A stretch of 46,229 nucleotides of DNA. Source: Sediminispirochaeta bajacaliforniensis DSM 16054 (GTDB lineage: Bacteria > Spirochaetota > Spirochaetia > DSM-16054 > Sediminispirochaetaceae). Shown one piece after another: positions 33,584 to 46,229 of the stretch. The DNA lies in contig NZ_KB899432.1 in the NCBI RefSeq assembly GCF_000378205.1, positions 1 through 46,229 on the forward strand, given 5' to 3'. The first letter of the stretch is position 1. Each line of letters opens with the position of its first letter. The position numbers were made by a program, and so were the translations under genes. The notes beneath the pieces are model-generated. The model was not told the origin of the DNA and did no database searches. It saw nothing but the letters and a program-made list of their open reading frames with translations.

Positions 33584-34645
33584 ATGAAGATGATTTCCCG
33601 TTACACAAAGAAAATCGGGCTGCCTCCCGGAACGGTAGTACATACCGGAGACCAAAAGATCAAGGCGGCGAAGGTTTCCGTGATGCACTACTCCGGAGCC
33701 AGTTGCGAGGAGCACGTCCTTGATACAGAGACCGATTTCACTTCTTTGGCAACGTTGAAAGGGGTTACCTGGATCAATATTGATGGTCTGCACGATATTT
33801 CCCTGATTCAGCGTATCGGTACGGCCTTTGATCTTCACCCTTTAATTCTGGAGGATATTACCAACATTGGGCAACGGCCGAAGTTCGAGGAGTATGGCGA
33901 CCGCCTTTTTGTTATTCTGCCCATGATCAGTTTCGACGATCACAATATGGCTATTGACGTGGAGCAGATCAGTCTGGTCTTCGGGAAGGGGTTCGTCTTA
34001 TCGTTTCAAGAGCGAACCGGTGATGTACTCGACTGTGTCCGGGAGAGGATACGGCATGGGACAGGACGGCTCCGTAAGGAGGGGGCCGACTATCTTACCT
34101 ATGGACTGATCGATGCCATCGTCGACAATTATTATCTTGTCCTCGAGCGGATGGGTGATAAGATTGAGCTTCTTGAGGATGAGCTTATCGGTGAGCCCAA
34201 CGAAACAACGCTCCACCGAATTCACGATTTGAAGCGGGAGATGATAGGGCTCAGGCGTTCAATCTGGCCTCTTCGGGAGTTGGTAAACGGTCTGATACGT
34301 AGTGAATCGCTTTTGATCGGGAAAACTACCCGAATGTATGTACGAGATGTGTACGATCATACCGTCCAGATCATCGATACCCTCGAAAGCTATCGTGATA
34401 TGACCTCTTCTATGCTGGATATTTATCTTTCCAGTGTCAGCAATAAAATGAATGTGGTGATGAAGGTCCTCACCATCATCGCCACCCTCTTTATTCCCCT
34501 TAGCTTCATTGCCGGAGTATACGGCATGAATTTTCGTTACATGCCGGAGCTGCAGTGGCGGTGGGCCTATCCCATATTTTGGCTCGTCTGCTTTTTAATT
34601 TTGATCGGAATGGTGATTTTTTTCAGAAAAAAGCGATGGATATAA
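33584..34645 (+). CDS. corA: CorA-family Mg2+/divalent cation channel
   Basis: 353 residues. A large cytoplasmic domain (about 1-285) carries the family motifs LHPLILEDI and a long helix, then two C-terminal membrane helices. The selectivity motif YGMN (Gly314-Met315-Asn316) lies between them, followed by the acidic loop FRYMPELQWRWAYP. Forms a pentameric channel gated by intracellular Mg2+. A GGGGG stretch precedes ATG 33584. Ends with basic FRKKRWI. It is followed by the tetR promoter only 9 bp after its stop. Confidence 0.95.
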   Translation: MKMISRYTKKIGLPPGTVVHTGDQKIKAAKVSVMHYSGASCEEHVLDTETDFTSLATLKGVTWINIDGLHDISLIQRIGTAFDLHPLILEDITNIGQRPKFEEYGDRLFVILPMISFDDHNMAIDVEQISLVFGKGFVLSFQERTGDVLDCVRERIRHGTGRLRKEGADYLTYGLIDAIVDNYYLVLERMGDKIELLEDELIGEPNETTLHRIHDLKREMIGLRRSIWPLRELVNGLIRSESLLIGKTTRMYVRDVYDHTVQIIDTLESYRDMTSSMLDIYLSSVSNKMNVVMKVLTIIATLFIPLSFIAGVYGMNFRYMPELQWRWAYPIFWLVCFLILIGMVIFFRKKRWI

Positions 34646-34654
34646 GTTCTTTAC

Positions 34655-34683
34655 TTGACTTTTATGAACAATGTTCATAAAGA
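34655..34683 (+). promoter_or_regulatory. Promoter and palindromic operator of the tetR-MATE operon
   Basis: -35 TTGACT (34655-34660), 17-bp spacer, -10 TAAAGA (34678-34683). The spacer holds a perfect inverted repeat TTATGAAC-AAT-GTTCATAA (34662-34680), a classic TetR-type operator that would block the promoter when bound. ATG 34693 lies 9 bases after the -10. Confidence 0.75.
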
Positions 34684-34692
34684 TATAAGGGA

Positions 34693-35289
34693 ATGCCGAA
34701 GCTTATCAAGAATATTGAGTCTCGTCTTATAGATGAACTTGAGAACATGATTTTTACCGAGGGCCAGGAGCTGACGCTCCGGTCCCTTGCCGAACGTGCA
34801 GGAATTGCTGTCGGAACAATCTACAATTACTTTCCGGATAAAGACGATCTCCTGAAGGCTCTCTTCCAGCGGGAATGGTCCAACGTTATTGCCGAGATTG
34901 TGAAGGAGTTGGATTCTGTCGAGGCATCTCGCAACGATCAAATCCGGAAGATTGTCGGTATGATTTATTCGTTGAGTGAACAGGTTGGGCGAACGCTTCC
35001 CCAACGAAAGACGTTACTCGGCGGCTGCAAGGAAAAAGGTGCTTTTCGCCTGCCAAGCTATCCCCATCGGCCTGAGGGGTGGTTCTGGCTTAGGGAAGCA
35101 TTTCGTCCGATCTGGAATCGGGTATTTCCCGATTCCAATATTGATGTCGATCGGCTTACCATTATGGTAGTCTCGATCGTGCCCCGCCTTATTTTTCTTT
35201 TCCCTGAGCAGGGTGAGGAAAATATGCAATTTATTACGCAACTGATTCAGCGCGGGACAAAAGAAAATGGAGCGATAGATGGCAGATAA
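34693..35289 (+). CDS. TetR-family transcriptional regulator
   Basis: 198 residues. The N-terminal TetR helix-turn-helix is at about 10-55: LTLRSLAERAGIAVGTIYNYFPDKDDLLKALFQ. A divergent C-terminal ligand-binding domain follows. The palindrome in its own promoter makes it the likely autorepressor and repressor of the MATE efflux gene, which overlaps its 3' end by 11 bases. Inducer unknown. The start is ATG 34693, consistent with the family, but the predicted transcription start is only 2-3 bases away, so the message may be leaderless. Confidence 0.92.
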   Translation: MPKLIKNIESRLIDELENMIFTEGQELTLRSLAERAGIAVGTIYNYFPDKDDLLKALFQREWSNVIAEIVKELDSVEASRNDQIRKIVGMIYSLSEQVGRTLPQRKTLLGGCKEKGAFRLPSYPHRPEGWFWLREAFRPIWNRVFPDSNIDVDRLTIMVVSIVPRLIFLFPEQGEENMQFITQLIQRGTKENGAIDGR

Positions 35290-36658
35290 TTACAATAATG
35301 AACGAATCCAATTACTGGCAGAGGGAGACATCGGCTCGGCCCTTTTCAAGCTTTCGGCTCCGGCAGTGGCCGGAATGATGGTTATGGCAATCTATAATGT
35401 AGTGGATACGTTTTTCGTGAGCCTTTTGCGGGATACCACGGCAGTTGCCGCTACAGGGATTGTCTTTCCCCTTTTTCAGCTTATCGGTTCCATCGGCCTT
35501 ACCTTTGGGATGGGGGCCGCCAGCGTTATCAGCAGAAAACTGGGGGAAAATGATTACAAAGAGGCAAACCGCACCGCTGCTACCGCTCTTTATACCTCTT
35601 TGGGCGTCGGTATAGCATTTGCCCTTGTCGGTGCGACCTTTATAAAGCCACTTCTGGTTCTCTTTGGGGCCACGGACTCGATCCTGAGCACCGCAGACCT
35701 TTACGGCAGAGTCATTGTGGGTGGTTCCATCTTCCAGGTTACCAACATGACCCTCAATAATATTCTCCGTTCTGAGGGCGCTGCATTACATAGCAGTACC
35801 GGACAGATTATCGGTGCAGTTATGAATATTATCCTCGATCCACTTTTTATCTTTGCCTTGAATATGGGTATAACCGGAGCCGCAATTGCAACGGTGATTT
35901 CCCAGGGCATCTCGACACTCTATCTTGCCAGCTACTATTTTCGAGACAAGGGAGCCATTAATCCCTTCAAGCGTTCTTATTTTCACCCCAGGGTAAGGAC
36001 CTATCGAAATATTATGAACATGGGAATTCCCACCTTCGTACGGCAGATTTTGGGAAGCATCTCCTTTGGTATCGTCAATAACGCCGCAGGCGTCTACGGG
36101 GATTCCTCTATTGCGGCTGTGAGTATCAACTTTCGCCTTTTCAGCCTTCTGATGATGGCGCTTTTCGGATTGGCCCAGGGCCTGCAGCCTTTGGCCGGAT
36201 ACAACTATGGCGCTCGCCGTTTCGACAGGGTACGACAAACCATTAGGATTGTTTTCGGTGTTGCAAGTGGAATCGGCCTGTTTGCCGGAATCCTTTGTTT
36301 TATCTTTGCCCCGGCGATCATGCGGGTTTTTGCACCCCAGGACCCTGATGTCATTGCCATGGGCTCAGAGGCGATGCGCATGATGGCCCTTTCCCTTATT
36401 CCCGTGGGCTTGGTAATTATGTTCGGCGGGATTTTTCAGGCCCTTGGAAATGGACGGTATGCCTTGATTCTTGCGGCGGGTCAACAAGGGCTTTTCCTGA
36501 TTCCTCTGGTGCTTATCCTTCCCCGTTTTTTCGGCATCTCGGGCGTGTTCGCCGCCCAGCCTGCGGGATTTGTCTTTGCCCTCCTTGTAGGAGTGATACT
36601 CTTTCTCCGGCAAAGCAATGTTTTGAAGGCCCGAGAAACCAATATGCTGGAGGGATAA
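35279..36658 (+). CDS. MATE-family multidrug/cation efflux transporter
   Basis: 459 residues with about 12 membrane helices in two similar halves, a family feature. MatE motifs include LSAPAVAGMMVMAIYNVVDTFFVS, then FGMGAASVISRKLGEND, and in the second half GLAQGLQPLAGYNYGAR. Exports drugs or metabolites in exchange for Na+ or H+. ATG 35279 has GGAG upstream and overlaps the tetR stop region by 11 bases; both are expressed from the operator-controlled promoter at 34655. Convergent with the DHH gene, 13 bp apart. Confidence 0.93.
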   Translation: MADNYNNERIQLLAEGDIGSALFKLSAPAVAGMMVMAIYNVVDTFFVSLLRDTTAVAATGIVFPLFQLIGSIGLTFGMGAASVISRKLGENDYKEANRTAATALYTSLGVGIAFALVGATFIKPLLVLFGATDSILSTADLYGRVIVGGSIFQVTNMTLNNILRSEGAALHSSTGQIIGAVMNIILDPLFIFALNMGITGAAIATVISQGISTLYLASYYFRDKGAINPFKRSYFHPRVRTYRNIMNMGIPTFVRQILGSISFGIVNNAAGVYGDSSIAAVSINFRLFSLLMMALFGLAQGLQPLAGYNYGARRFDRVRQTIRIVFGVASGIGLFAGILCFIFAPAIMRVFAPQDPDVIAMGSEAMRMMALSLIPVGLVIMFGGIFQALGNGRYALILAAGQQGLFLIPLVLILPRFFGISGVFAAQPAGFVFALLVGVILFLRQSNVLKARETNMLEG

Positions 36659-36671
36659 AAAAGGAAATCAT

Positions 36672-38015
36672 TTAGGCGACGGGAATGCCTACTTCCTGCA
36701 TTGCCCGTTGCTGTTTCCGTTTTTCGTTTTTTGCGAAGTTCAAAAAATCGGTCCTGGTTACAATACCGGCGAGTTTTTCCGCTTTGATGATCGGAAGATG
36801 ACCAATGTTATTATCGAAAAGTTTCTCTTCGATTTCCCGGACCGTGGTTTCCGGAGCGGCGGTGATGAGGTTTCTTGTCATGTAGCCTTTCACCGGAGAG
36901 TGCATTTGTTCAGCCCTTCTTCCCTTCATGATGTCCCTAAGGGTGATGAAGCCGGCAAGGGCCCCGGTTTCGCATATCACGGGAATACCGGTGTGACCCA
37001 GCTTTTCCAGAAGTATTGAGGCCTCCAGCAGACTCGCCGTATCAAGTATCGTATGGACTGGGCTGCTCATAAGTTCCTCGGCAGTAATCGCCGGGGCAAG
37101 CATTTCCTCGAGGTGCTCGAGCAGCTTTTTGTGCACGAAACGTCCGTCTTCATGTTTTACCATGGCCGAACCCGCTTTCGGATGCCCTCCTCCACCGAAG
37201 ATTCTGAGGATGTCGTTAAGATCGATGGTATTCTTTTGATTTCGTGCAATGATAAGTGTTTTCTTCTTTTTGGGAAAATGAAATGTGGCGAAAAAAAGAT
37301 CTTGGTTTTCCACCTCGAATACCTTTTCCACCACTGCACCGAGCCCTTCCGTTTCCGTTTCTATCTCCCAATAACTGGTAATAACTTGATGTCCGTGAAT
37401 CGAATGATATGTCAGCCTGTTGAGAAGCTCGTGAAAGAGGGTTACCTGGTAGGTTCCCGACAAAGGCTTTAGAAATCGCTTTACCATGGGGAGGGAAGCG
37501 CCACAGGTTAGAAGATAGGAGGCAACGGAAAAATCGACCTCCTGGACATTCTCATGAGTGAAATTGCCGGTGTCTGCATAGATCCCCGCCAAAGCAACGG
37601 TGGCATCTTCCGGATCCACAGCAATCTTGCGTTGCATCAATTTCAGGCCTATCTGACTTGTATTCGCTCCGCAGGGCATGCTGTGGATAAGGGCGGCAGG
37701 AAAACCTTCCGCTTCTCCGGGGTGGTGGTCAAAGATTTCCACCTCATAGTTGTCGTTTTTGATGAACTGGAAATATTCCTTCACCCTCGACATTGCCCGT
37801 GTATCTACTATGACGATTTTTTCCACCGTTTCCCCCTCGAGATCCTTGGGGTTGAGAAAGGTAAGCTTATGCCGATAGATATTGTGCATCTTTCGTGCAA
37901 CGGGGTGGAGGAGTCTGCTACGTATCGCTTGATGGTCGGGAAAAAGATACTTTGCCAAGACGATCGAGCCGATACAGTCCAGGTCCATGTTGGTGTGCCC
38001 GATAATGATCTTCAT
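36672..38015 (-). CDS. DHH phosphoesterase with tandem CBS domains
   Basis: 447 residues. The N-terminal DHH domain has HTNMDLDCIGS (metal-binding Asp residues), VIVDTR and FDHHPG. The DHHA1 substrate domain ends in GGGGHPKAGSAMV. Two CBS domains follow (about 310-430, AEELMSSPVHTI and VKGYMTRNLITA), typically binding adenine nucleotides. The same DHH-CBS block is known as the N-terminal half of some tRNA nucleotidyltransferase/polyA polymerase-like proteins, but the transferase domain is absent here. It may be a nanoRNA/pAp phosphatase or a polyphosphatase-like enzyme gated by nucleotides. The AAGG ribosome site lies in a small stem CTACC/GGTAG just before the ATG. Confidence 0.88.
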   Translation of the reverse strand: MKIIIGHTNMDLDCIGSIVLAKYLFPDHQAIRSRLLHPVARKMHNIYRHKLTFLNPKDLEGETVEKIVIVDTRAMSRVKEYFQFIKNDNYEVEIFDHHPGEAEGFPAALIHSMPCGANTSQIGLKLMQRKIAVDPEDATVALAGIYADTGNFTHENVQEVDFSVASYLLTCGASLPMVKRFLKPLSGTYQVTLFHELLNRLTYHSIHGHQVITSYWEIETETEGLGAVVEKVFEVENQDLFFATFHFPKKKKTLIIARNQKNTIDLNDILRIFGGGGHPKAGSAMVKHEDGRFVHKKLLEHLEEMLAPAITAEELMSSPVHTILDTASLLEASILLEKLGHTGIPVICETGALAGFITLRDIMKGRRAEQMHSPVKGYMTRNLITAAPETTVREIEEKLFDNNIGHLPIIKAEKLAGIVTRTDFLNFAKNEKRKQQRAMQEVGIPVA

Positions 38016-38091
38016 CCTACCTTATATGGTAGCAAAATCCGGCAAGTTCGCAAGTAAAAAGATGGAAAGCGATAAAGAACTTTCAAGGGAT

Positions 38092-39561
38092 TTAAGTAGG
38101 CACTTCCTCGATCCTCTGTATTCCCTGGTGGGTGAGTATAAGCCGGTATCGGAAAAGTTGTTCTTCTTCTCCCTTGCTCGAAAGGACCAGAATGAGATTA
38201 ATATGGTAAACCCGCTTTCCCTTGATGGCCTGGACCTCTCCCCCGTACCAGGTTCTCAACAGCTTCTTGGATGCGTCCATCTCTTCCTGAAATCGGTCGA
38301 GCTTCAACCGAATAATTTCGGTTATCGCTTCCACACGGGAATGTTCTCTGAGCAGTTTGCGGCTGTCGATAACCACCTCTTTCCTGAAATGGATGACGTT
38401 TTCCGGAGGAAGAATCGAACGAAAAGGATTAGAGCCTGCCTGCCGTACCGTCCTTACATTTTGCGGAAGCTCTTCCGGGGAGATGATACGGACCATACTG
38501 CGTGTTTTCCCCACATGCCTGTCGACCGCCCGGTCTACCAATCGCTCTGTTCTGTCCGCTATGAATCGAGGCATTATTTTTACCAATATGCCTCGCAGAA
38601 TTTCCTTGATACGGTCTTTCAGCATGTAACTGACGACTACAATAAAGGCCCAGGGAACACTGTAACTTGCAAAAAGGGTATTTGCAAAAAAAGTGGCGAC
38701 AACCGAAAAAATCATAGCCGTTGCCGCTGCCATTGCCGCTAGTATATGTCCTATCTTGCGATTGGTACCTGTTTCCTCACTGGACATATAGAGAACGGTC
38801 TGGGACCATTTCTTCAGGATGCTTTCACGATAGAGCATCCCTTCAACCTCTACTTCCGTTCCGTTTGTGATAACCGACGGGTAACCCATTTCTTTGCGAT
38901 AATACTGCTCGTGCTCCATGAGTACCGTAATCTTTTCCACCAGTTCTTCCTGCCGGAGCATACCGTGAAGGTAAAAAAGCATTTTCTCCGCCGATAAGCT
39001 GATCGATTCGTCTGTCCACCGAAGGGCCGTTCTCAGCCGTTCGGTGATGGACGGTTCCATGAAACGGGCATGAAGAGCACGAAAGACATGGAGGAAGGTT
39101 TCGGTCTCCTTGAGAAACAATTCAATCTTCGTGATGACTGTCGGATTGGTTCCCTCTTTTGCGATACCGCTCAACAGTCTGTGGGTCGCTTTCATTTCCG
39201 CCGAAAAGAGGTTTGCAAGGGTCCGCAGTTCGTAGAGTATCCGGTTTTCGTCGATATCACTCGATAAATTCGCCTTATCCAGAAACTTCCCGATGCGTGC
39301 GATGGGACTGATGGCGCAGTCCGGATCCATCAGCCGCGAAAGGGGAATGTACGAGATGGAAAAACGAGTGTGGCTTTTAACGTCCGAGAAAAAATGGTCC
39401 ACCCCGTAACGCTTGGCCGTTATACCAAGTTGTGCCGGAGTGAACATATATGTTTCAAGTGTGTAGAATGCCCGATTCTCTTTTGGATCAAGAGGGTATC
39501 TGTTCTTTAACTCTAATTGGGTCTTCCCGTGGGCCCGAATTGAGGATTTATATTCGGTCAT
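38092..39561 (-). CDS. Conserved membrane protein of unknown function
   Basis: 489 residues from ATG 39561 (AAAGGAG upstream); the open frame continues 38 codons further into the ABC ATPase gene but without a ribosome site. A large soluble N-terminal region (about 1-265, rich in helices) is followed by two transmembrane helices (about 268-312, GHILAAMAAATAMIFSVVAT), then a basic amphipathic segment (RFIADRTERLVDRAVDRHVGK). A soluble beta-rich C-terminal domain ends YRLILTHQGIQRIEEVPT. I do not recognise the family. It begins 34 bp after the ABC transporter ATPase gene and is followed by the DHH gene, so it may share the transporter transcript. Confidence 0.7.
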   Translation of the reverse strand: MTEYKSSIRAHGKTQLELKNRYPLDPKENRAFYTLETYMFTPAQLGITAKRYGVDHFFSDVKSHTRFSISYIPLSRLMDPDCAISPIARIGKFLDKANLSSDIDENRILYELRTLANLFSAEMKATHRLLSGIAKEGTNPTVITKIELFLKETETFLHVFRALHARFMEPSITERLRTALRWTDESISLSAEKMLFYLHGMLRQEELVEKITVLMEHEQYYRKEMGYPSVITNGTEVEVEGMLYRESILKKWSQTVLYMSSEETGTNRKIGHILAAMAAATAMIFSVVATFFANTLFASYSVPWAFIVVVSYMLKDRIKEILRGILVKIMPRFIADRTERLVDRAVDRHVGKTRSMVRIISPEELPQNVRTVRQAGSNPFRSILPPENVIHFRKEVVIDSRKLLREHSRVEAITEIIRLKLDRFQEEMDASKKLLRTWYGGEVQAIKGKRVYHINLILVLSSKGEEEQLFRYRLILTHQGIQRIEEVPT

Positions 39562-39595
39562 TCCGTCTCCTTTCAATGCCTGACTTATTGAGCAC

Positions 39596-40687
39596 CTATC
39601 TCTTGTAAATTCTGAAGAACTCCTTTTTAAAGGAGAAAGCAATCTCCTGGCCATAACGATAATTATGGATCTCACCTTGGGTATTCGGCGTAATCGCCGT
39701 CATAAATCCGTCGGCGTACTCGATTTTGTATTCGGTAGTTGCCCCAAGAAAGCTACTAACCTCAATCTTACCGTTAAACGCTCCTTTTCCTGGTCTAACT
39801 TCAACCGCCTCCGGTTTTATGGCCAGGACAACTTCGTCTCCCTTTAAAAATGATTGTCCGGCGGTAGAGAGAGGAACTTGCACCTCGGATCCGAGTAGAG
39901 AGACCGAAATAAAACGACTGTCGATCTCCGTCACCACACCGTCGAAGAAATTTGCGTTACCGATAAAATCGGACACAAAGGGATCTGCGGGGTGATTGTA
40001 AATCTCCTCGGGGCTGCCGCTCTGAACAATTTTACCATTGTTCATAATAACAATAGTATCACTGATACTCAAGGCTTCACTTTGATCATGGGTAACGTAA
40101 AGTGCGGTGATACCCAAGAGTTGTTGTACCCGTTTGATTTCCGTTCGTGTCTGGATTCGTAGCTTTGCATCCAAATTCGAAAGAGGCTCATCGAAAAGAA
40201 TGATTTCCGGTTTTAAAACCAGAGCCCGGGCAAGAGCCACCCGTTGCTGCTGCCCTCCCGACAATTCTCCAGGATAACGATCTTCCAATCCCACAAGATT
40301 AACCATCTGTGCTGCCAGAGCAACGTCGTTTTTGATCACCTCTTTCGGTATTTTGCGTATTTTCAATCCGTAAGCGATATTTTCAAAAATGGTAAGATGT
40401 GGGAAGAGGGCGTAGCTCTGGAATACCATCGGCATGTTGCGGTCGAAAGCTGGAATTGTATTTATTTTCCTTCCGTCCAGGATGATGTCGCCGGTACTCT
40501 GCACCTCGAAACCTGCAACCATTCGAAGGGTTGTGGTCTTCCCGCATCCCGAGGGCCCAAGGAGTGTGACAAAATCCCCCTTGGCGATGGAGAGCGAAAT
40601 ATCATCTACAGCACGTACGGTATTGCCTCGTCCGTCGTGAAAGTCCTTGACCAAGTTTTTTAGCATCAGGTAATCGTTCTGTTTCAT
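39596..40687 (-). CDS. ABC transporter ATP-binding protein (Fbp/Pot type)
   Basis: 363 residues. Walker A GPSGCGKTT, Q-loop VFQSYALFPH, signature LSGGQQQRVALARAL, Walker B IILFDEPLSNLD and H-loop YVTHDQSEA are all intact. A C-terminal TOBE domain (about 280-363) is present. It powers the importer made of the double permease (40699-42384) and binding protein (42456-43484). AAAGGAAAAG lies before the ATG, 11 bp after the permease stop. The family serves ferric iron, polyamine, phosphoglycerate or sugar-phosphate uptake. Confidence 0.94.
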   Translation of the reverse strand: MKQNDYLMLKNLVKDFHDGRGNTVRAVDDISLSIAKGDFVTLLGPSGCGKTTTLRMVAGFEVQSTGDIILDGRKINTIPAFDRNMPMVFQSYALFPHLTIFENIAYGLKIRKIPKEVIKNDVALAAQMVNLVGLEDRYPGELSGGQQQRVALARALVLKPEIILFDEPLSNLDAKLRIQTRTEIKRVQQLLGITALYVTHDQSEALSISDTIVIMNNGKIVQSGSPEEIYNHPADPFVSDFIGNANFFDGVVTEIDSRFISVSLLGSEVQVPLSTAGQSFLKGDEVVLAIKPEAVEVRPGKGAFNGKIEVSSFLGATTEYKIEYADGFMTAITPNTQGEIHNYRYGQEIAFSFKKEFFRIYKR

Positions 40688-40698
40688 CTTCTTTTCCT

Positions 40699-42384
40699 TT
40701 ATTTCGTCGTTCCGAAAATTTGTTCGCGTCCCAGGCCCGTGAGTTTCATGATGATGAAGATGAACACCATGATGACTACAATCAGGGCGAAGGACATGAC
40801 CGAGGCGACTCCCAGTCGCATAATCTCCGTCTGGGCAAGAACAAGAACCGTCATATGGTTCCAGCGTGCAGATACAAGAAAAATAATAGCGCTTATGGCC
40901 GTCATGCTTCTGACAAAGGCAAAGGTCGCTCCGGAGAAAAAGGCCGGACGGATCAGCGGCAGGGTAATCTTTCTGAAGGTAAGGGCACTGGTTGCCCCCA
41001 GATTGATGGAGGATTCCTCGATTTCATTGGAAATCTGCTTCAGTGCCGCTATACCTCCTTCCACTCCGATCGGAACATTTCTAAAAACATAGCAGGTGAT
41101 CAGGATAAAGGCGGTTCCCGAAAGTTCGAAAGGCGCTTTATTGAAGGCTAAAATATAGCCGATACCGACGGCGGTTCCCGGGATGGCGTAGCTGAGCATG
41201 GAAAGGAACTCCATAAGATGTTTACCGGGGAAGTTTTTTCGCACGACGATGTAGGCAATGACCATGCCGAAGATGGCAGTGATAGGTGTGCTGATAATCG
41301 CAAGAAAGAGGGTATTCTTCATGGTTGTGCGCCCAACATCCCAGCTGTAGGCAAAGTGGTCGAGGGTAAGATGCCAGTTAATTCCCCACAATTTTACAAA
41401 GCTACCACTTATGATGGTGGCGTACAAAAGCAGGACAAAACCGGAGATGATGCCGCAGGCAAGGGTTAAAAGAATTGTAACCCCTTTTCCCGTTTGTGCG
41501 GTGCTTCGCCTGCTCGATTTACCGGTTACCGTGATGTAGCTTTTCTTTCTCATAATATACTTCTGAATAAAGAAAACACTAACCGTGGGAATCAACAACA
41601 GAATTGCAAGGGCCGTTCCCCGGGGAAGGTTCCCCATACCGGTGAATTCCATATAGGCCTGGACAGAGAGGACATCGAAGTTTCCGCCGATAATGATAGG
41701 ATTTCCGAAATCGGTGAGGCTGCTGACAAACACGAGCAGCCAGGAGGCGAAAATCCCCGGAAGAGCAAGGGGAAAGGTAACGGTCAAGAATGCCTTTCCC
41801 CGTTTTGCTCCAAGATTCATGGCACAGGTCTCGAGGTCCGGGTCGATACCCTGGAGGATGCCTGAAAGTGTCATGTAGGCTATGGGAAACATACTGATGG
41901 TCTGGACGATAATCAGGCCTTTTAGACCATAGACATTTGCCATGTCGATTCCCAATAGTTTTGCCGTGATAAGTCCGTTTCTTCCGAAAAGGAGAATAAC
42001 GGAAAGGGCAAACATGAAGGGTGGTGAGATGATCGGAAGAAGAGCCATCCCCTGGAAAAATTTCCTTCCGCCGATTCGGGCTCTTGTAAGGGCGAAGGCA
42101 AACAAAAAGCCGATGGCTGTTGCCAGCGTGGCTACGATCACCCCGAGGGTGACGCTGTTTCGTATCGCCCGCAAATATTGTGAATGGGTAAAAATCTGAC
42201 GGTATACGTCGCCGGTAAGTTTTCCCTCCGGGGCAAGGCTCAATTTTGCTGCAGAGGCGAGAGGGTAGAGGATGAACAATGCCAGCAGCGCAAAGATGAC
42301 TATTACGCCGATCATGAGGGCCGGTTCTCTTGTTAATTGGTAAAAACGATTATTTAGGTTCCGGCCGGTGGTCGTGTTTGTCAT
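40699..42384 (-). CDS. ABC transporter permease, fused double MetI-type (FbpB-like)
   Basis: 561 residues with about 12 membrane helices. It contains two binding-protein-dependent permease modules; the EAA loops are ETCAMNLGAKRGKAFLTVTFPL (first) and EESSINLGATSALTFRKITLPL (second), the ATPase docking sites. Such fused permeases are standard in Fbp/Afu/Sfu iron and sugar-phosphate systems. AAGGAGC precedes ATG. A strong hairpin lies between it and the binding-protein gene upstream, likely reducing its expression relative to that gene. Confidence 0.93.
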   Translation of the reverse strand: MTNTTTGRNLNNRFYQLTREPALMIGVIVIFALLALFILYPLASAAKLSLAPEGKLTGDVYRQIFTHSQYLRAIRNSVTLGVIVATLATAIGFLFAFALTRARIGGRKFFQGMALLPIISPPFMFALSVILLFGRNGLITAKLLGIDMANVYGLKGLIIVQTISMFPIAYMTLSGILQGIDPDLETCAMNLGAKRGKAFLTVTFPLALPGIFASWLLVFVSSLTDFGNPIIIGGNFDVLSVQAYMEFTGMGNLPRGTALAILLLIPTVSVFFIQKYIMRKKSYITVTGKSSRRSTAQTGKGVTILLTLACGIISGFVLLLYATIISGSFVKLWGINWHLTLDHFAYSWDVGRTTMKNTLFLAIISTPITAIFGMVIAYIVVRKNFPGKHLMEFLSMLSYAIPGTAVGIGYILAFNKAPFELSGTAFILITCYVFRNVPIGVEGGIAALKQISNEIEESSINLGATSALTFRKITLPLIRPAFFSGATFAFVRSMTAISAIIFLVSARWNHMTVLVLAQTEIMRLGVASVMSFALIVVIMVFIFIIMKLTGLGREQIFGTTK

Positions 42385-42412
42385 GCACGGTGCTCCTTAC
42401 GAATAAAGACGA

Positions 42413-42440
42413 CTATAGGGGCCGCTGAGGGCCCCTATAG
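42413..42440 (-). terminator. Intercistronic hairpin after the binding-protein gene
   Basis: CTATAGGGGCC - 6-base loop - GGCCCCTATAG, a perfect 11-bp stem, followed on the minus strand by TCGTCTTTATT. It fits a partial terminator or 3'-stabiliser that leaves more binding protein than permease. Confidence 0.7.
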
Positions 42441-42455
42441 CTTTCCGGTAAACTA

Positions 42456-43484
42456 TTATTTCTTTGGTTCGGTACGAGATTCACCGCCTATGACGGCGTT
42501 CCACTTTTCCACTAGGCGGGTTTTGTTGGCTGCGGCCCATTCATCGTCCTGATTGATGGTGTTGACCTTGCTGATGGGAAGGGCACCCTTGGGAAGGGGA
42601 ACATCAACAAAGGGAACGGTAAAGGCCGTGGTATAGATTTTTGCGGCGGTTTCACCAAGGGCCCAATCGTAGAGCTTCTTTGCATGTGCGAGCTCTTCGG
42701 CAGGACCGTTTTTGATCAGGCTGATGGAGGCAACCTCATAGCCTGTTCCTTCGGAGGGGAAGGTAATTTCCAGGGGATATCCTTCGGCAATCAAACGTAC
42801 ACCGTCGTGAGCGTATCCGATGGCAATCGTGGTTTCTCCAATGGCTGCATTCTTTCCGGGGGCCGAGCCGCTTCTTGTATACTGGGTGATATTGGAGTCC
42901 AGCCGCTTCATGTATTCAAAGGCCTTCTCCTCTCCGTAGAGCGTTACCATGGTGGCAAGAACGTTATAGGCCGTTCCCGAAGATCCGGGATTCGCCATCT
43001 GCACGTGTCCCTTATATTTGGGATCGGCAAGTTCTTCCCAGGATGTGGGAGCGGTGAGACCGTATTTTTCCAAGGCCTGGGTATTGCTCTCAAAACAGAG
43101 GGGCCCTGCGTAGATTCCCGACCAGTATCGATCCGGGTCTCTGAATTTTTCAGGCATTGTAGCGGCGGGGGAATCATAGGGCATGGTCAACCCTTTGTCC
43201 TTCGCCTCGATATGACCGAGACCTACACCTCCGTACCAGATGCTGGCCTGGGGGTTTTCTTTTTCCGCTTCCATCCTGGCGGTACATTCGCCGGTGGAAA
43301 GGCGTACCCAATCGACCTGAATGCCGGTCTCTTCGGTAAAGGCGTTGAACACCTTACGGGCAAGCTCTTCGTCGAGGGTGGTATAGGCGGTTACCTTTCC
43401 GGCGTTCTCCTTCTCTCCTCCTGCGAACAACGCAAATGAGGTAACAAGCAGCATCGCCAGGGCAATTGCTACAACTCGTTTCAT
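42456..43484 (-). CDS. ABC transporter substrate-binding protein (AfuA/FbpA-like)
   Basis: 342 residues from ATG 43484 (AGGAGGAG upstream). Type I signal peptide (MKRVVAIALAMLLVTSFALFA, cut probably after FA); no lipobox Cys. The mature start KVTAYTTLDEELARKVFNAF is typical of cluster D/F iron- or anion-binding proteins of the Fbp/Afu class; GYAHDGVRLIAEGYPLEITFPSEGTGYE is the conserved C-lobe motif. I do not see the double-Tyr Fe(III) site of classic FbpA, so phosphorylated sugars, phosphoglycerate or phosphonates are at least as likely as iron. It has its own promoter at 43527 and a phased repeat array upstream. Confidence 0.88.
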   Translation of the reverse strand: MKRVVAIALAMLLVTSFALFAGGEKENAGKVTAYTTLDEELARKVFNAFTEETGIQVDWVRLSTGECTARMEAEKENPQASIWYGGVGLGHIEAKDKGLTMPYDSPAATMPEKFRDPDRYWSGIYAGPLCFESNTQALEKYGLTAPTSWEELADPKYKGHVQMANPGSSGTAYNVLATMVTLYGEEKAFEYMKRLDSNITQYTRSGSAPGKNAAIGETTIAIGYAHDGVRLIAEGYPLEITFPSEGTGYEVASISLIKNGPAEELAHAKKLYDWALGETAAKIYTTAFTVPFVDVPLPKGALPISKVNTINQDDEWAAANKTRLVEKWNAVIGGESRTEPKK

Positions 43485-43526
43485 GACGGTTCTCCTCCTG
43501 TTTGGGTTTGTGACTATATCCCTTAC

Positions 43527-43555
43527 AGTGTAGGATCTCCCCCGAACGGAGACAA
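43527..43555 (-). promoter_or_regulatory. Promoter of the ABC importer
   Basis: On the minus strand: -35 TTGTCT (43550-43555), 17-bp spacer, -10 TACACT (43527-43532). The leader is about 35 bases with AGGAGGAG. Confidence 0.7.
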
Positions 43556-43593
43556 GAAACAATCCGGTTACAATGGAGTTACGAAATAGTAAC
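43556..43593 (-). promoter_or_regulatory. Four 11-bp phased repeats, candidate response-regulator binding array
   Basis: On the plus strand GAAAC (43556), GTTAC (43567), GTTAC (43578) and GTAAC (43589) start at exact 11-bp intervals. The last two overlap the 3' end of the response-regulator gene. In the transcription sense the units read CGTTAC, CGTAAC, TGTAAC, TGTTTC and directly abut the -35. Direct repeats at this spacing next to the -35 are typical of OmpR/PhoB-family activators. Confidence 0.65.
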
Positions 43594-44277
43594 GGGAAGA
43601 GCGAAGCGGTAACCGCGCCCCCACTGGTTGACGATGACCCGCGGATTATGGGGATCCTGTTCCACCTTGGTGCGAAGACGCTGAATGTTCACTTTAATCA
43701 TTTGGCGATATCCGTCCCACTCTTCGGTTCCCCACACTTCCCGAAGGATTTCTTCCCAGGTGACCACCGCTCCCTTTTGCTTCATCAGCAACACAAGAAG
43801 AAGATACTCGGTAGGAGTCAGTCGGACCCTTTCTCCCCTGCATAGCACCTCTTCGGAATCGAAGTTGACGGAAAGTCCTTCGCTGACTATCCTTTGCGGC
43901 TTTTCATCGCTGTCGTTTCTTCCAATCAGATTCGCCACCCGAAGGATTAACTCGCGGTGATTAAAGGGCTTGCGAACATAGTCCAGAGCTCCCAGCTCCA
44001 GGCCTGAAATGACGTAATCATCCTCGTCGTGACTGCTTAGTATCAAAATCGGAATGCCCTTGTCTCGGAGGGTTCGACAGACCGAAAAGCCGTCTATACC
44101 GGGTAAGGCCAGGTCCAGGACGACCAAATCGAAGTCTTCGCCGTCGGCGGTCTCTACTGCGGCTTCCCCCGTCTCCACGGTAGTAACCTGATACCCCTCG
44201 TCGGTCAGGAGAAAATGGAGGATCTGCAAAATATGCGGCTCATCGTCGACAACGAGAATATGTTTGTCGCTATTCAT
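43579..44277 (-). CDS. OmpR/PhoB-family response regulator
   Basis: 232 residues. Receiver domain with Asp11-Asp12 (VVDDEPH), phospho-acceptor Asp55 (LVVLDLALPGIDG), switch Ser (ILSSHDE) and Lys (YVRKPFNHRE). The C-terminal winged helix has VRLTPTEYLLLVLLM, the recognition helix region YRQMIKVNIQRLRTKVEQ, and the wing VNQWGRGYRFALP. It overlaps the kinase gene upstream by 8 bases. The likely target is the importer operon directly downstream, through the phased repeats at 43556-43593. Confidence 0.94.
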   Translation of the reverse strand: MNSDKHILVVDDEPHILQILHFLLTDEGYQVTTVETGEAAVETADGEDFDLVVLDLALPGIDGFSVCRTLRDKGIPILILSSHDEDDYVISGLELGALDYVRKPFNHRELILRVANLIGRNDSDEKPQRIVSEGLSVNFDSEEVLCRGERVRLTPTEYLLLVLLMKQKGAVVTWEEILREVWGTEEWDGYRQMIKVNIQRLRTKVEQDPHNPRVIVNQWGRGYRFALPVTIS

Positions 44278-45442
44278 TTTCGGTAACTACTCCGTCAAGG
44301 GGAAGCGTGAAGGAAACCGTGGTTCCCGAACCCTCCACCGATCCCACATAGACCTTCCCATTATGCTTTTCGATTACCCGCTTGACAATAGCTAAACCAA
44401 GCCCGGCCCCCTCGAGCTGGGCACCCGAGAGAATTCCACCCTGAAAAAACTCGGTAAATACCTGCGGCTGCTCTCCTGTTCGAATCCCGGAACCATTGTC
44501 GTTTACCGATACCACCACCGCCTGTTCGTTTTCGTTGACCGATATGATGACACTGCCCCCTCTTCGCATGTGCTTGACGGCGTTGTGCACCAGGTTGACT
44601 AAGACCTGATGTATCCATCCCTCATCGGCAGGGGGGCGGGAGAGCAGTTTCGGAAAAGAGTAACGCAGCTCGATTCCTTTAGCTTCGAGGATCGGCCGCA
44701 TGTGAAGGGCCACATTCTTGATGACCTTTCTGATGTCGATGGGCTTAACCTTGATGGTAAACCAGGCACTTTCTACTTTGATACTTGCCAGAATGGTATC
44801 GGAAAGGGTGACCAGCCTTTGTACATTGCTTCCTACCGAAGAGAGAAATTGGTGTTGGCGTTCTTCCAGGGGCCCAATCCTTTCTTCGATCAAAAGATCG
44901 ACGGTAGACTGAATGACGGTGAGGGGGGTGCGTATTTCGTGGGCCAGGGTGGAAAGAATTGCCTCTTTTGTTTTAAGGCGCTTCTCTATTTCCAGCCGTT
45001 TCGCTTCCTGATTCCGTATCAGAAGAAAGGTAAACAAGAGGGCCAACGGAGTGACAATTGCGGCTGCCACGAAGAACGGGAGAAGGGGAGAAAGCGATAG
45101 GAGGCCCGCCGCACAGGGACCGATCACGCTTACGGCAAAGGGGAGACGCAATTTCCAGCCGCTGTTTTGTGCTGCGTCGACGGCGATTCTTGATCCGATC
45201 AGAGGGGCGAAGAATAGAAGCGGAGTCAAACCGGATGCAGCCGCCCCGAAAACGATGAAAAGTAATTCTCCGAAAAGCGCCAAAGAGGAGGGGATAATGG
45301 GAAGAAAGCGTAATCCCATGGTTGCGAATGTCAGGGCAAGGGCAATGATTGAGGCTTTCGTCGAGAACGGGTAGGCGAAAGGTAAGGCGATGAGAACGGA
45401 CAGCGCCAGAATGCGGCATCGATAATGGTCGAAACGAAGCAT
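44270..45442 (-). CDS. Sensor histidine kinase of the importer-linked two-component system
   Basis: 390 residues from ATG 45442 (GGGAG six bases upstream). Five or six hydrophobic helices fill residues 1-140 with almost no extracytoplasmic loop, so it may sense within the membrane or via partner proteins. HisKA follows with STLAHEIRTPLTVIQ (His168). The ATPase region has N-box VNLVHNAVKHMRRGG, G1 VNDNGSGIR and G2 GAGLGLAIVKRVI. The frame is open further upstream to 45511, but that stretch is the end of the insertion sequence. A perfect TATAAT lies at 45453-45458 (minus strand), so the promoter and the IS end nearly touch. Confidence 0.9.
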   Translation of the reverse strand: MLRFDHYRCRILALSVLIALPFAYPFSTKASIIALALTFATMGLRFLPIIPSSLALFGELLFIVFGAAASGLTPLLFFAPLIGSRIAVDAAQNSGWKLRLPFAVSVIGPCAAGLLSLSPLLPFFVAAAIVTPLALLFTFLLIRNQEAKRLEIEKRLKTKEAILSTLAHEIRTPLTVIQSTVDLLIEERIGPLEERQHQFLSSVGSNVQRLVTLSDTILASIKVESAWFTIKVKPIDIRKVIKNVALHMRPILEAKGIELRYSFPKLLSRPPADEGWIHQVLVNLVHNAVKHMRRGGSVIISVNENEQAVVVSVNDNGSGIRTGEQPQVFTEFFQGGILSGAQLEGAGLGLAIVKRVIEKHNGKVYVGSVEGSGTTVSFTLPLDGVVTENE

Positions 45443-45452
45443 TACGGCTCCC

Positions 45453-45458
45453 ATTATA
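45453..45458 (-). promoter_or_regulatory. TATAAT -10 element before the kinase gene
   Basis: On the minus strand AGTATAATGGGAG: a consensus -10 only 10 bases before ATG 45442. A -35 would fall in the IS terminal repeat; CTGACA there is 14 bp away, too close for good spacing, so the true -35 is unclear. Confidence 0.45.
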
Positions 45459-45468
45459 CTACATTTAG

Positions 45469-45490
45469 CTACTGTCAGGAATCGTGGTGA
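45469..45490. repeat. IS terminal inverted repeat (right copy)
   Basis: The complement reads TCACCACGATTCC-T-GACAGTAG outward, 21 of 22 identical to the repeat at 452-473. The transposase stop lies 11 bp inside it. Confidence 0.8.
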
Positions 45491-45501
45491 TTCCTTTACC
45501 T

Positions 45502-46229
45502 TTAAGCCCATGCATAAGAAGGAAGATAGTCAATCATCCACCGTAAGGCCGTGGGAATGCACCTGACCCACAGCTCCCTCCCACTCCGATTCATGGGCTG
45601 GTTCCGTAAGAAAAACCTCCGCCTGGTATACAGACTCCTCAACTCGGATGCTATCCGCTTCCCCTCTATCCCAGCCACTATCCCATGTGTCAGCCCCCGC
45701 TTCTCATCCTTTCCCCCAACCCGATAGGGCTTCATAAAGTTGTGATAATATCGGTAGATCTCAAGCCGCTCCAGCATGTTCACCGTACTTCGGGCAAACT
45801 GTACCGTCTGCCTCACATGATCCGAGTCATCCTTCCGGATCTCCCGGTCAAGGTAGTTCACACTAAAGAGGGGATTACACAGATCCCGAACCCGCTTCGA
45901 GCTGATCCTGTGGTGCTCTATCATTCCGGCCACCCCAGCCGGTAGAGCTTTCATCACCCTTTTGTACTGCATGTGTTCATCGGTATAGAGCTTCACCCTA
46001 TCCCTTTCCGATTGTTCGGTCAGGGATAGGACCTTTTCAACGACATGCTGAAACGACTGATAAACACTTCCTCTATAGACCTTTAGCTGCTCTTTGATCA
46101 CCGTGTTTCTCTTCTTCTGATAGCAGGTCATACGTCCCTTTCTGGTCAGCTGAGCATAATCGGAGAGGAACCAGAACTGGGAGTCTTTTCCTGCCAGGAT
46201 CTGGATGTTGTTGGGAAGGTACTGGGAAC
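45502..46229 (-). CDS. IS transposase, C-terminal part (cut by window edge)
   Basis: 241 codons of a transposase whose start is beyond the right edge. The frame is open to the edge, beginning SQYLPNNIQILAGKDSQFW, and includes LTRKGRMTCYQKKRNTVIKE. An internal Met at 46131 could be mistaken for a start. VKLYTDEHMQY plausibly holds the second catalytic Asp and MLERLEIYRYYHNFMKP the Glu of a DDE nuclease, with the tyrosine/His-rich stretch usual near it. It ends WMIDYLPSYAWA. It complements the N-terminal piece at 1-383; the combined protein would be about 370 residues. The family name is not certain (zinc-ribbon, IS1-like/IS1595-like group considered). Confidence 0.8.
   Translation of the reverse strand, partial: SQYLPNNIQILAGKDSQFWFLSDYAQLTRKGRMTCYQKKRNTVIKEQLKVYRGSVYQSFQHVVEKVLSLTEQSERDRVKLYTDEHMQYKRVMKALPAGVAGMIEHHRISSKRVRDLCNPLFSVNYLDREIRKDDSDHVRQTVQFARSTVNMLERLEIYRYYHNFMKPYRVGGKDEKRGLTHGIVAGIEGKRIASELRSLYTRRRFFLRNQPMNRSGRELWVRCIPTALRWMIDYLPSYAWA

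Follow-up and report, generated by a model that had tools for sequence, protein, structure and literature searches.

The locus analysed here raises the question of what four short, evenly spaced repeats do between the genes of a two-component system and those of an ABC importer. The window, which is the whole stretch of 46,229 nucleotides that was analysed, carries them in the following setting, in which kinase, regulator, binding protein, permease and ATPase genes all run in the same direction:

44270 to 45442, minus strand: membrane histidine kinase (HisKA, HATPase_c), with its start taken from alignment with relatives.
43579 to 44277, minus strand: OmpR/PhoB-type response regulator (Response_reg, Trans_reg_C; best PDB match MtrA, 2gwr), the presumed ligand of the repeats.
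42456 to 43484, minus strand: AfuA-like solute-binding protein (SBP_bac_6; best PDB match AfuA, 4r72, E 1.6e-59).
40699 to 42384, minus strand: ABC permease of the fused two-copy type (BPD_transp_1 twice).
39596 to 40687, minus strand: ABC ATPase with a TOBE domain (ABC_tran, TOBE_2).

The longest open reading frame of the kinase begins at 45511, and comparison with relatives places its start probably at MLRFDHY. Another open reading frame (45502-46227, minus strand) runs off the window edge and ends about 60 bp before this probable start. It has no Pfam match and recurs in G001, a genome of the same genus with 95% identity over 33818-46229. The repeats are predicted to serve as operator for a regulator of the OmpR/PhoB type, and the adjacent one is the likeliest candidate. 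Very probably, the phosphorylated regulator encoded at 43579-44277 occupies the four units as two dimers and activates the AfuA-like importer operon.

On the plus strand the units are GAAAC (43556-43560), GTTAC (43567-43571), GTTAC (43578-43582) and GTAAC (43589-43593). Their starts at 43556, 43567, 43578 and 43589 confirm the exact 11-bp phase claimed in the sequence-only reading. On the minus strand, along which the genes are read, the order from distal to proximal is GTTAC, GTAAC, GTAAC, GTTTC. The gap between regulator and binding protein reads CCC GTTAC TATTTC GTAAC TCCATT GTAAC CGGATT GTTTC TTGTCT-17 bp-TACACT on this strand, followed by AGGAGG and the ATG. Its elements are:

43589 to 43593, minus strand: unit 1 (distal), GTTAC, within the regulator's final codons and kept in 19 gap-free loci.
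43578 to 43582, minus strand: unit 2, GTAAC, straddling the TAA stop codon of the regulator.
43567 to 43571, minus strand: unit 3, GTAAC, with a conserved ATT in front.
43556 to 43560, minus strand: unit 4 (proximal), GTTTC, with an invariant TT before and an invariant TTG after it.
43550 to 43555, minus strand: -35 element TTGTCT, of which TTG is invariant in the 19 gap-free loci and the remainder is degenerate.
43527 to 43532, minus strand: -10 element TACACT, 17 bp from the -35.
43494 to 43499, minus strand: ribosome-binding site AGGAGG of the importer's first gene, from the sequence.

Unit 4 runs straight into the -35-like TTGTCT, and the claim that the array abuts the importer -35 holds. 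Both distal units had been placed inside the end of the regulator gene. This is correct for 43589-43593, but 43578-43582 straddles the stop, taking in the third base of the Ser codon, the whole TAA and one base further. The promoter scanner did not report the importer promoter because only 8 of 12 consensus bases are matched, the -35 being weak. Likewise, the repeat finder did not detect the array because its units are only 5 bp long.

Loci were collected from relatives of the regulator in 60 sampled genomes and from relatives of the importer in the named genome collection, oriented, and then read around the start of the binding-protein gene. Array and promoter stand before the importer in the window and in 22 other loci (23 in total), all of them spirochaetal, including that of the named relative Candidatus Marispirochaeta associata (L026). 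The binding proteins of the 22 array loci are at least 66% identical to that of the window. The array persists even in species whose regulator has just 42-50% identity and in which no part of the array is coding. Over the 19 gap-free loci, the information per column is 1.54 bits for the units, 0.92 for the spacers, 2.0 for the TTG of the -35 and 0.96 for the -10; outside it is 0.24 upstream and about 0.38 elsewhere. Unit 4 is invariant in these loci at its G, T and C, as are the TT ahead of it and the TTG behind it. The step between units is 11 bp and sometimes 10 bp (in L022, L023 and L024), so the helical phase is kept. Four full units are not universal, the distal ones being degenerate in L035, L038, L039 and L042. 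Across the loci the array is fused to the TTG of the -35 and to the -10 at near-constant spacing. The 23 loci thus show conserved direct repeats of about 11 bp at a promoter with fixed spacing, as in a tandem operator.

Since GTTAC and GTAAC are reverse complements of each other, the direction of the repeat must come from its flanks. The invariant bases in and around unit 4 and the conserved ATT before unit 3 together define a directional unit (A)TTGTWAC. The unit had been written as G(T/A)(T/A)AC; its phasing stands, but (A)TTGTWAC on the reading strand, with GTTTC as the last unit, describes it better.

This geometry also bears on how the promoter would be controlled. In all loci the -35 fits the sigma-70 consensus in TTG only and is otherwise weak, as at activator-dependent promoters, which suggests activation. 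The neighbouring kinase would phosphorylate the regulator, and the phosphorylated regulator would bind the direct-repeat array as two head-to-tail dimers. By analogy with PHO boxes, four 11-bp half-sites on one helix face could hold these two dimers. The proximal dimer, sitting beside the degenerate -35, would then recruit RNA polymerase to an otherwise weak promoter, and the importer operon would be turned on. Alternatively, the regulator might bind the array but repress the importer promoter, with induction by release. The sign of regulation cannot be read from sequence alone, and an array that touches the -35 could place a bound protein where it also hinders polymerase. However, the array stops upstream of the -35 and leaves the spacer between -35 and -10 free, the bare TTG is typical of promoters that need an activator, and the nearly constant distance from array to -10 is as expected for polymerase contact. 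We therefore regard repression as improbable and activation as the preferred reading.

Which regulator would bind is addressed by its sequence and by genomic linkage. The adjacent regulator has the receiver and the Trans_reg_C winged helix of the OmpR/PhoB family (Pfam, 106.1 and 81.7 bits, above cut-off). Its best match in both PDB and NCBIfam is MtrA. Nevertheless it is rejected as an MtrA orthologue (185.9 bits versus the MtrA equivalog cut-off of 300) and as PhoB (149.4 versus 296.2 bits for TIGR02154, 165 versus 270 for NF053854). The array-linked regulators have a recognition helix [KR]V[NTG][IV]xRxRxKxE in common; ten further OmpR-type regulators from the same genome were aligned, and all lack it.

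When 395 genomes of the class were scanned with GTWAC-N6-GTWAC-N6-GTWNC-TTG, blind to location, 16 strict sites turned up in 15 of them, versus 3 sites for the reversed pattern. All but one of the 16 adjoin this kinase-regulator-importer system; 12 lie immediately ahead of the importer and 3 ahead of the kinase gene. There is one strict array per genome, with two in G062. In L106 (1501-1530), L111 and L112 the array before the kinase gene is divergent from a second AfuA-like binding-protein gene, and in L044 (2426-2465) an array likewise precedes the kinase gene. The only strict site without a recognisable importer is L114 (G019, contig C31:707-736; 2.2 kb viewed), and no regulator match was found in G019 at E 1e-40. 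In the 60-genome sample, importer (at least 60% identity) and regulator occur in the same genomes. The exception is G045, where the contig ends before the regulator. Around binding proteins of at most 61% identity, mostly from Bacillota, neither array nor adjacent regulator is found, except in L044, which has both.

Two loci deserve separate description. In L041 (74-120) a perfect four-unit GTTAC array precedes a second AfuA-like operon with genes for binding protein, ATPase and permease; the orthologue of the window's importer comes after this operon. In L040 (7137-8119) a regulator gene lies on the opposite strand directly after a truncated ATPase gene, and the binding protein is without its start; this copy of the system is either rearranged or misassembled.

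The array could also be an operator of the same general kind for another OmpR-type regulator, for example of phosphate or nitrogen control, while the neighbouring regulator has other targets. The genome encodes 14 Trans_reg_C proteins, and global regulators elsewhere have boxes that agree with the unit (GlnR/MtrA, PMC10704036). Counted against the adjacent regulator are also the strict site of L114, with no importer in view and no close regulator in its genome, the array before a different AfuA-like operon in L041, and the arrays before the kinase gene in L044, L106, L111 and L112. A global regulator should have many sites, whereas strict arrays are nearly always single in a genome and, in 15 of 16 cases, adjoin the system itself. 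Moreover, the array and the neighbouring regulator come, go and move as a pair, and the moves include those to a position before the kinase gene. Control by another regulator is thus very improbable. The earlier proposal, in which the adjacent regulator acts on the importer promoter through a phased operator, is supported by the phased-unit searches, the conservation and the co-occurrence, and this regulator presumably binds the array.

The overlap with the regulator gene provides a further view of the constraint on the array. In seven loci (window, G001, G033, G008, L021, L026 and L022) the first unit has its start exactly 12 bp ahead of the regulator stop, and there the array encodes the regulator tail V-T-(I/V/N)-(S/L)-stop. 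In L023-L025, L027-L030 and L032-L036 this unit lies 5 to 172 bp past the stop. The claim that operator and coding sequence coincide is therefore real for the seven loci with intact units, but the array is intergenic in other species. The Val codon is GTT in all seven overlap loci; its third base is free, and T is what the operator needs. GTT accounts for only 13-41% of the other Val codons in the same regulator genes, and the chance of an all-GTT Val is about 0.0004 (six loci, with the genes' own Val usage and shared ancestry ignored). Immediately beyond the unit, the wobble base of the Thr codon varies between T and C. In G008 a TGA stop makes unit 2 GTGAC. Conservation at freely variable positions, put forward earlier as a check, is thus found both in the noncoding arrays of most relatives and in the fixed free wobble base where the array is coding.

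In the window, GTWAC-N6-GTWAC-N6-GTWAC with at most one mismatch matches only the array (0 in 100 dinucleotide shuffles), and the array is also its sole match in the 4.57-Mb genome, where the control pattern read backward has 2 matches per strand. From base composition (GC assumed 0.49), about 0.04 exact and about 1.4 one-mismatch three-unit matches are expected per genome. Taken alone, the three-unit match within one genome is suggestive only. This background is not negligible, so the case for an operator rests on conservation. The proposed genome search for phased units supports the operator reading, with the array unique in its own genome and the strict sites of the class exceeding the control. 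As to a wider regulon, a search of the same genome for the two proximal units, allowing up to one mismatch, gave 10+9 matches versus 9+11 for the control, none of them prominent. A near match in L099 has no further units.

That the array arose by chance, or as a side effect of the coding constraint on the regulator's last codons, is hardly credible: one unit does lie in coding sequence with another overlapping it, and the single-genome match is not statistically extreme and would be insufficient alone, but the array is conserved in many relatives where it is entirely noncoding, which rules this out, and the Val third base is fixed while the neighbouring Thr wobble varies.

The importer looks AfuA-like, which is the sugar-phosphate type, rather than of the iron type. 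AfuABC imports hexose and heptose phosphates, and AfuA uses Ser37, Thr150, His205, Asp206 and Glu229 for sugar phosphates, of which the last three are critical (PMC4546632). In the PDB-match alignment these residues correspond to Thr64, Thr171, His226, Asp227 and Glu250, all invariant among eight spirochaete relatives, and the critical three are identical (H226, D227, E250). With AfuA as best match and the sugar-phosphate residues kept, the first candidate for the inducing signal is a phosphorylated sugar or a related ester, a possibility drawn from homology. An AfuA-like fold also binds pyridoxal phosphate (6wce). The top NCBIfam scores for the importer come from models of a putative 2-aminoethylphosphonate system, all under cut-off, and an assignment as PhnS2/T2/U2 is rejected (228.8 versus 392.75, 319.4 versus 593.25 and 362.9 versus 457.7 bits). 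Genes after the ATPase in the loci compared give no consistent clue to the substrate. In the window an uncharacterised open reading frame of about 489 aa (38092-39561, minus strand; no Pfam match) directly follows the ATPase gene; a similar one is present in L024 and L026, and it may be an extra operon member.

Taken jointly, these results allow a tentative and rather unlikely reading, that of a spirochaete-specific kinase-regulator-importer module. Its kinase, which has no evident periplasmic domain, would be told of an external phosphorylated sugar by the transporter or its binding protein, and each genome would keep about one private operator. In some lineages this operator would also encode the C-terminal tail of the regulator (VTIS-stop), and it would have grown to resemble the actinobacterial GlnR box. 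An operator (A)TTGTWAC at 11-bp steps, ending in GTTTC-TTG, makes the regulon readable from sequence, and the search for an inducer is directed to phosphorylated sugars and related esters. The locus is also a clean example of an operator that partly occupies the final stretch of the gene for its own regulator, where a third codon position is fixed to suit. In the literature searched, with subscription papers mostly outside it, no publication on this two-component system was found.

A comparison with AfuABC shows an AfuA-related binding protein with the residues mostly kept. Ser37 of AfuA is Thr here, specificity may differ, and the spirochaete importer has a dedicated two-component system ahead of it. 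The operators of AfsR/SARP regulators are 11-bp direct repeats at the -35 that overlap the spacer between -35 and -10, and RNA polymerase is contacted (PMC10936776). Both cases combine an OmpR-type DNA-binding domain with direct repeats of 11-bp pitch next to a -35, whereas the spirochaete array ends upstream of the -35. The PHO box of PhoB/PhoP consists of two head-to-tail 11-nt direct repeats, with CTGTCAT in E. coli and GTTCACC in Streptomyces (PMC4415409). The spirochaete array shares the head-to-tail arrangement, the 11-nt repeat, the OmpR/PhoB-type regulator and the position by the -10/-35 region. It differs in its unit (A)TTGTWAC and in the partial -35 kept downstream of the repeats; its regulator falls below the PhoB equivalog cut-offs and its importer is not a phosphate (Pst) transporter. 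The actinomycete GlnR box is gTnAC-n6-GaAAC, or GTnAC-n6-GTnAC in S. venezuelae, and is also bound by MtrA; with GTnAC units in tandem and a 6-bp spacer, the array agrees with this consensus (PMC10704036). The 5-bp unit, the 6-bp spacer, the 11-bp pitch, the tandem pairs and the OmpR-type regulator are all alike. In contrast to the global regulon of GlnR/MtrA, the spirochaete array has one local target and is linked to a kinase-importer cluster, whose regulator lies far under the MtrA equivalog cut-off. The spirochaete array is thus predicted to work like the GlnR/MtrA and PHO operators while belonging to neither regulon.
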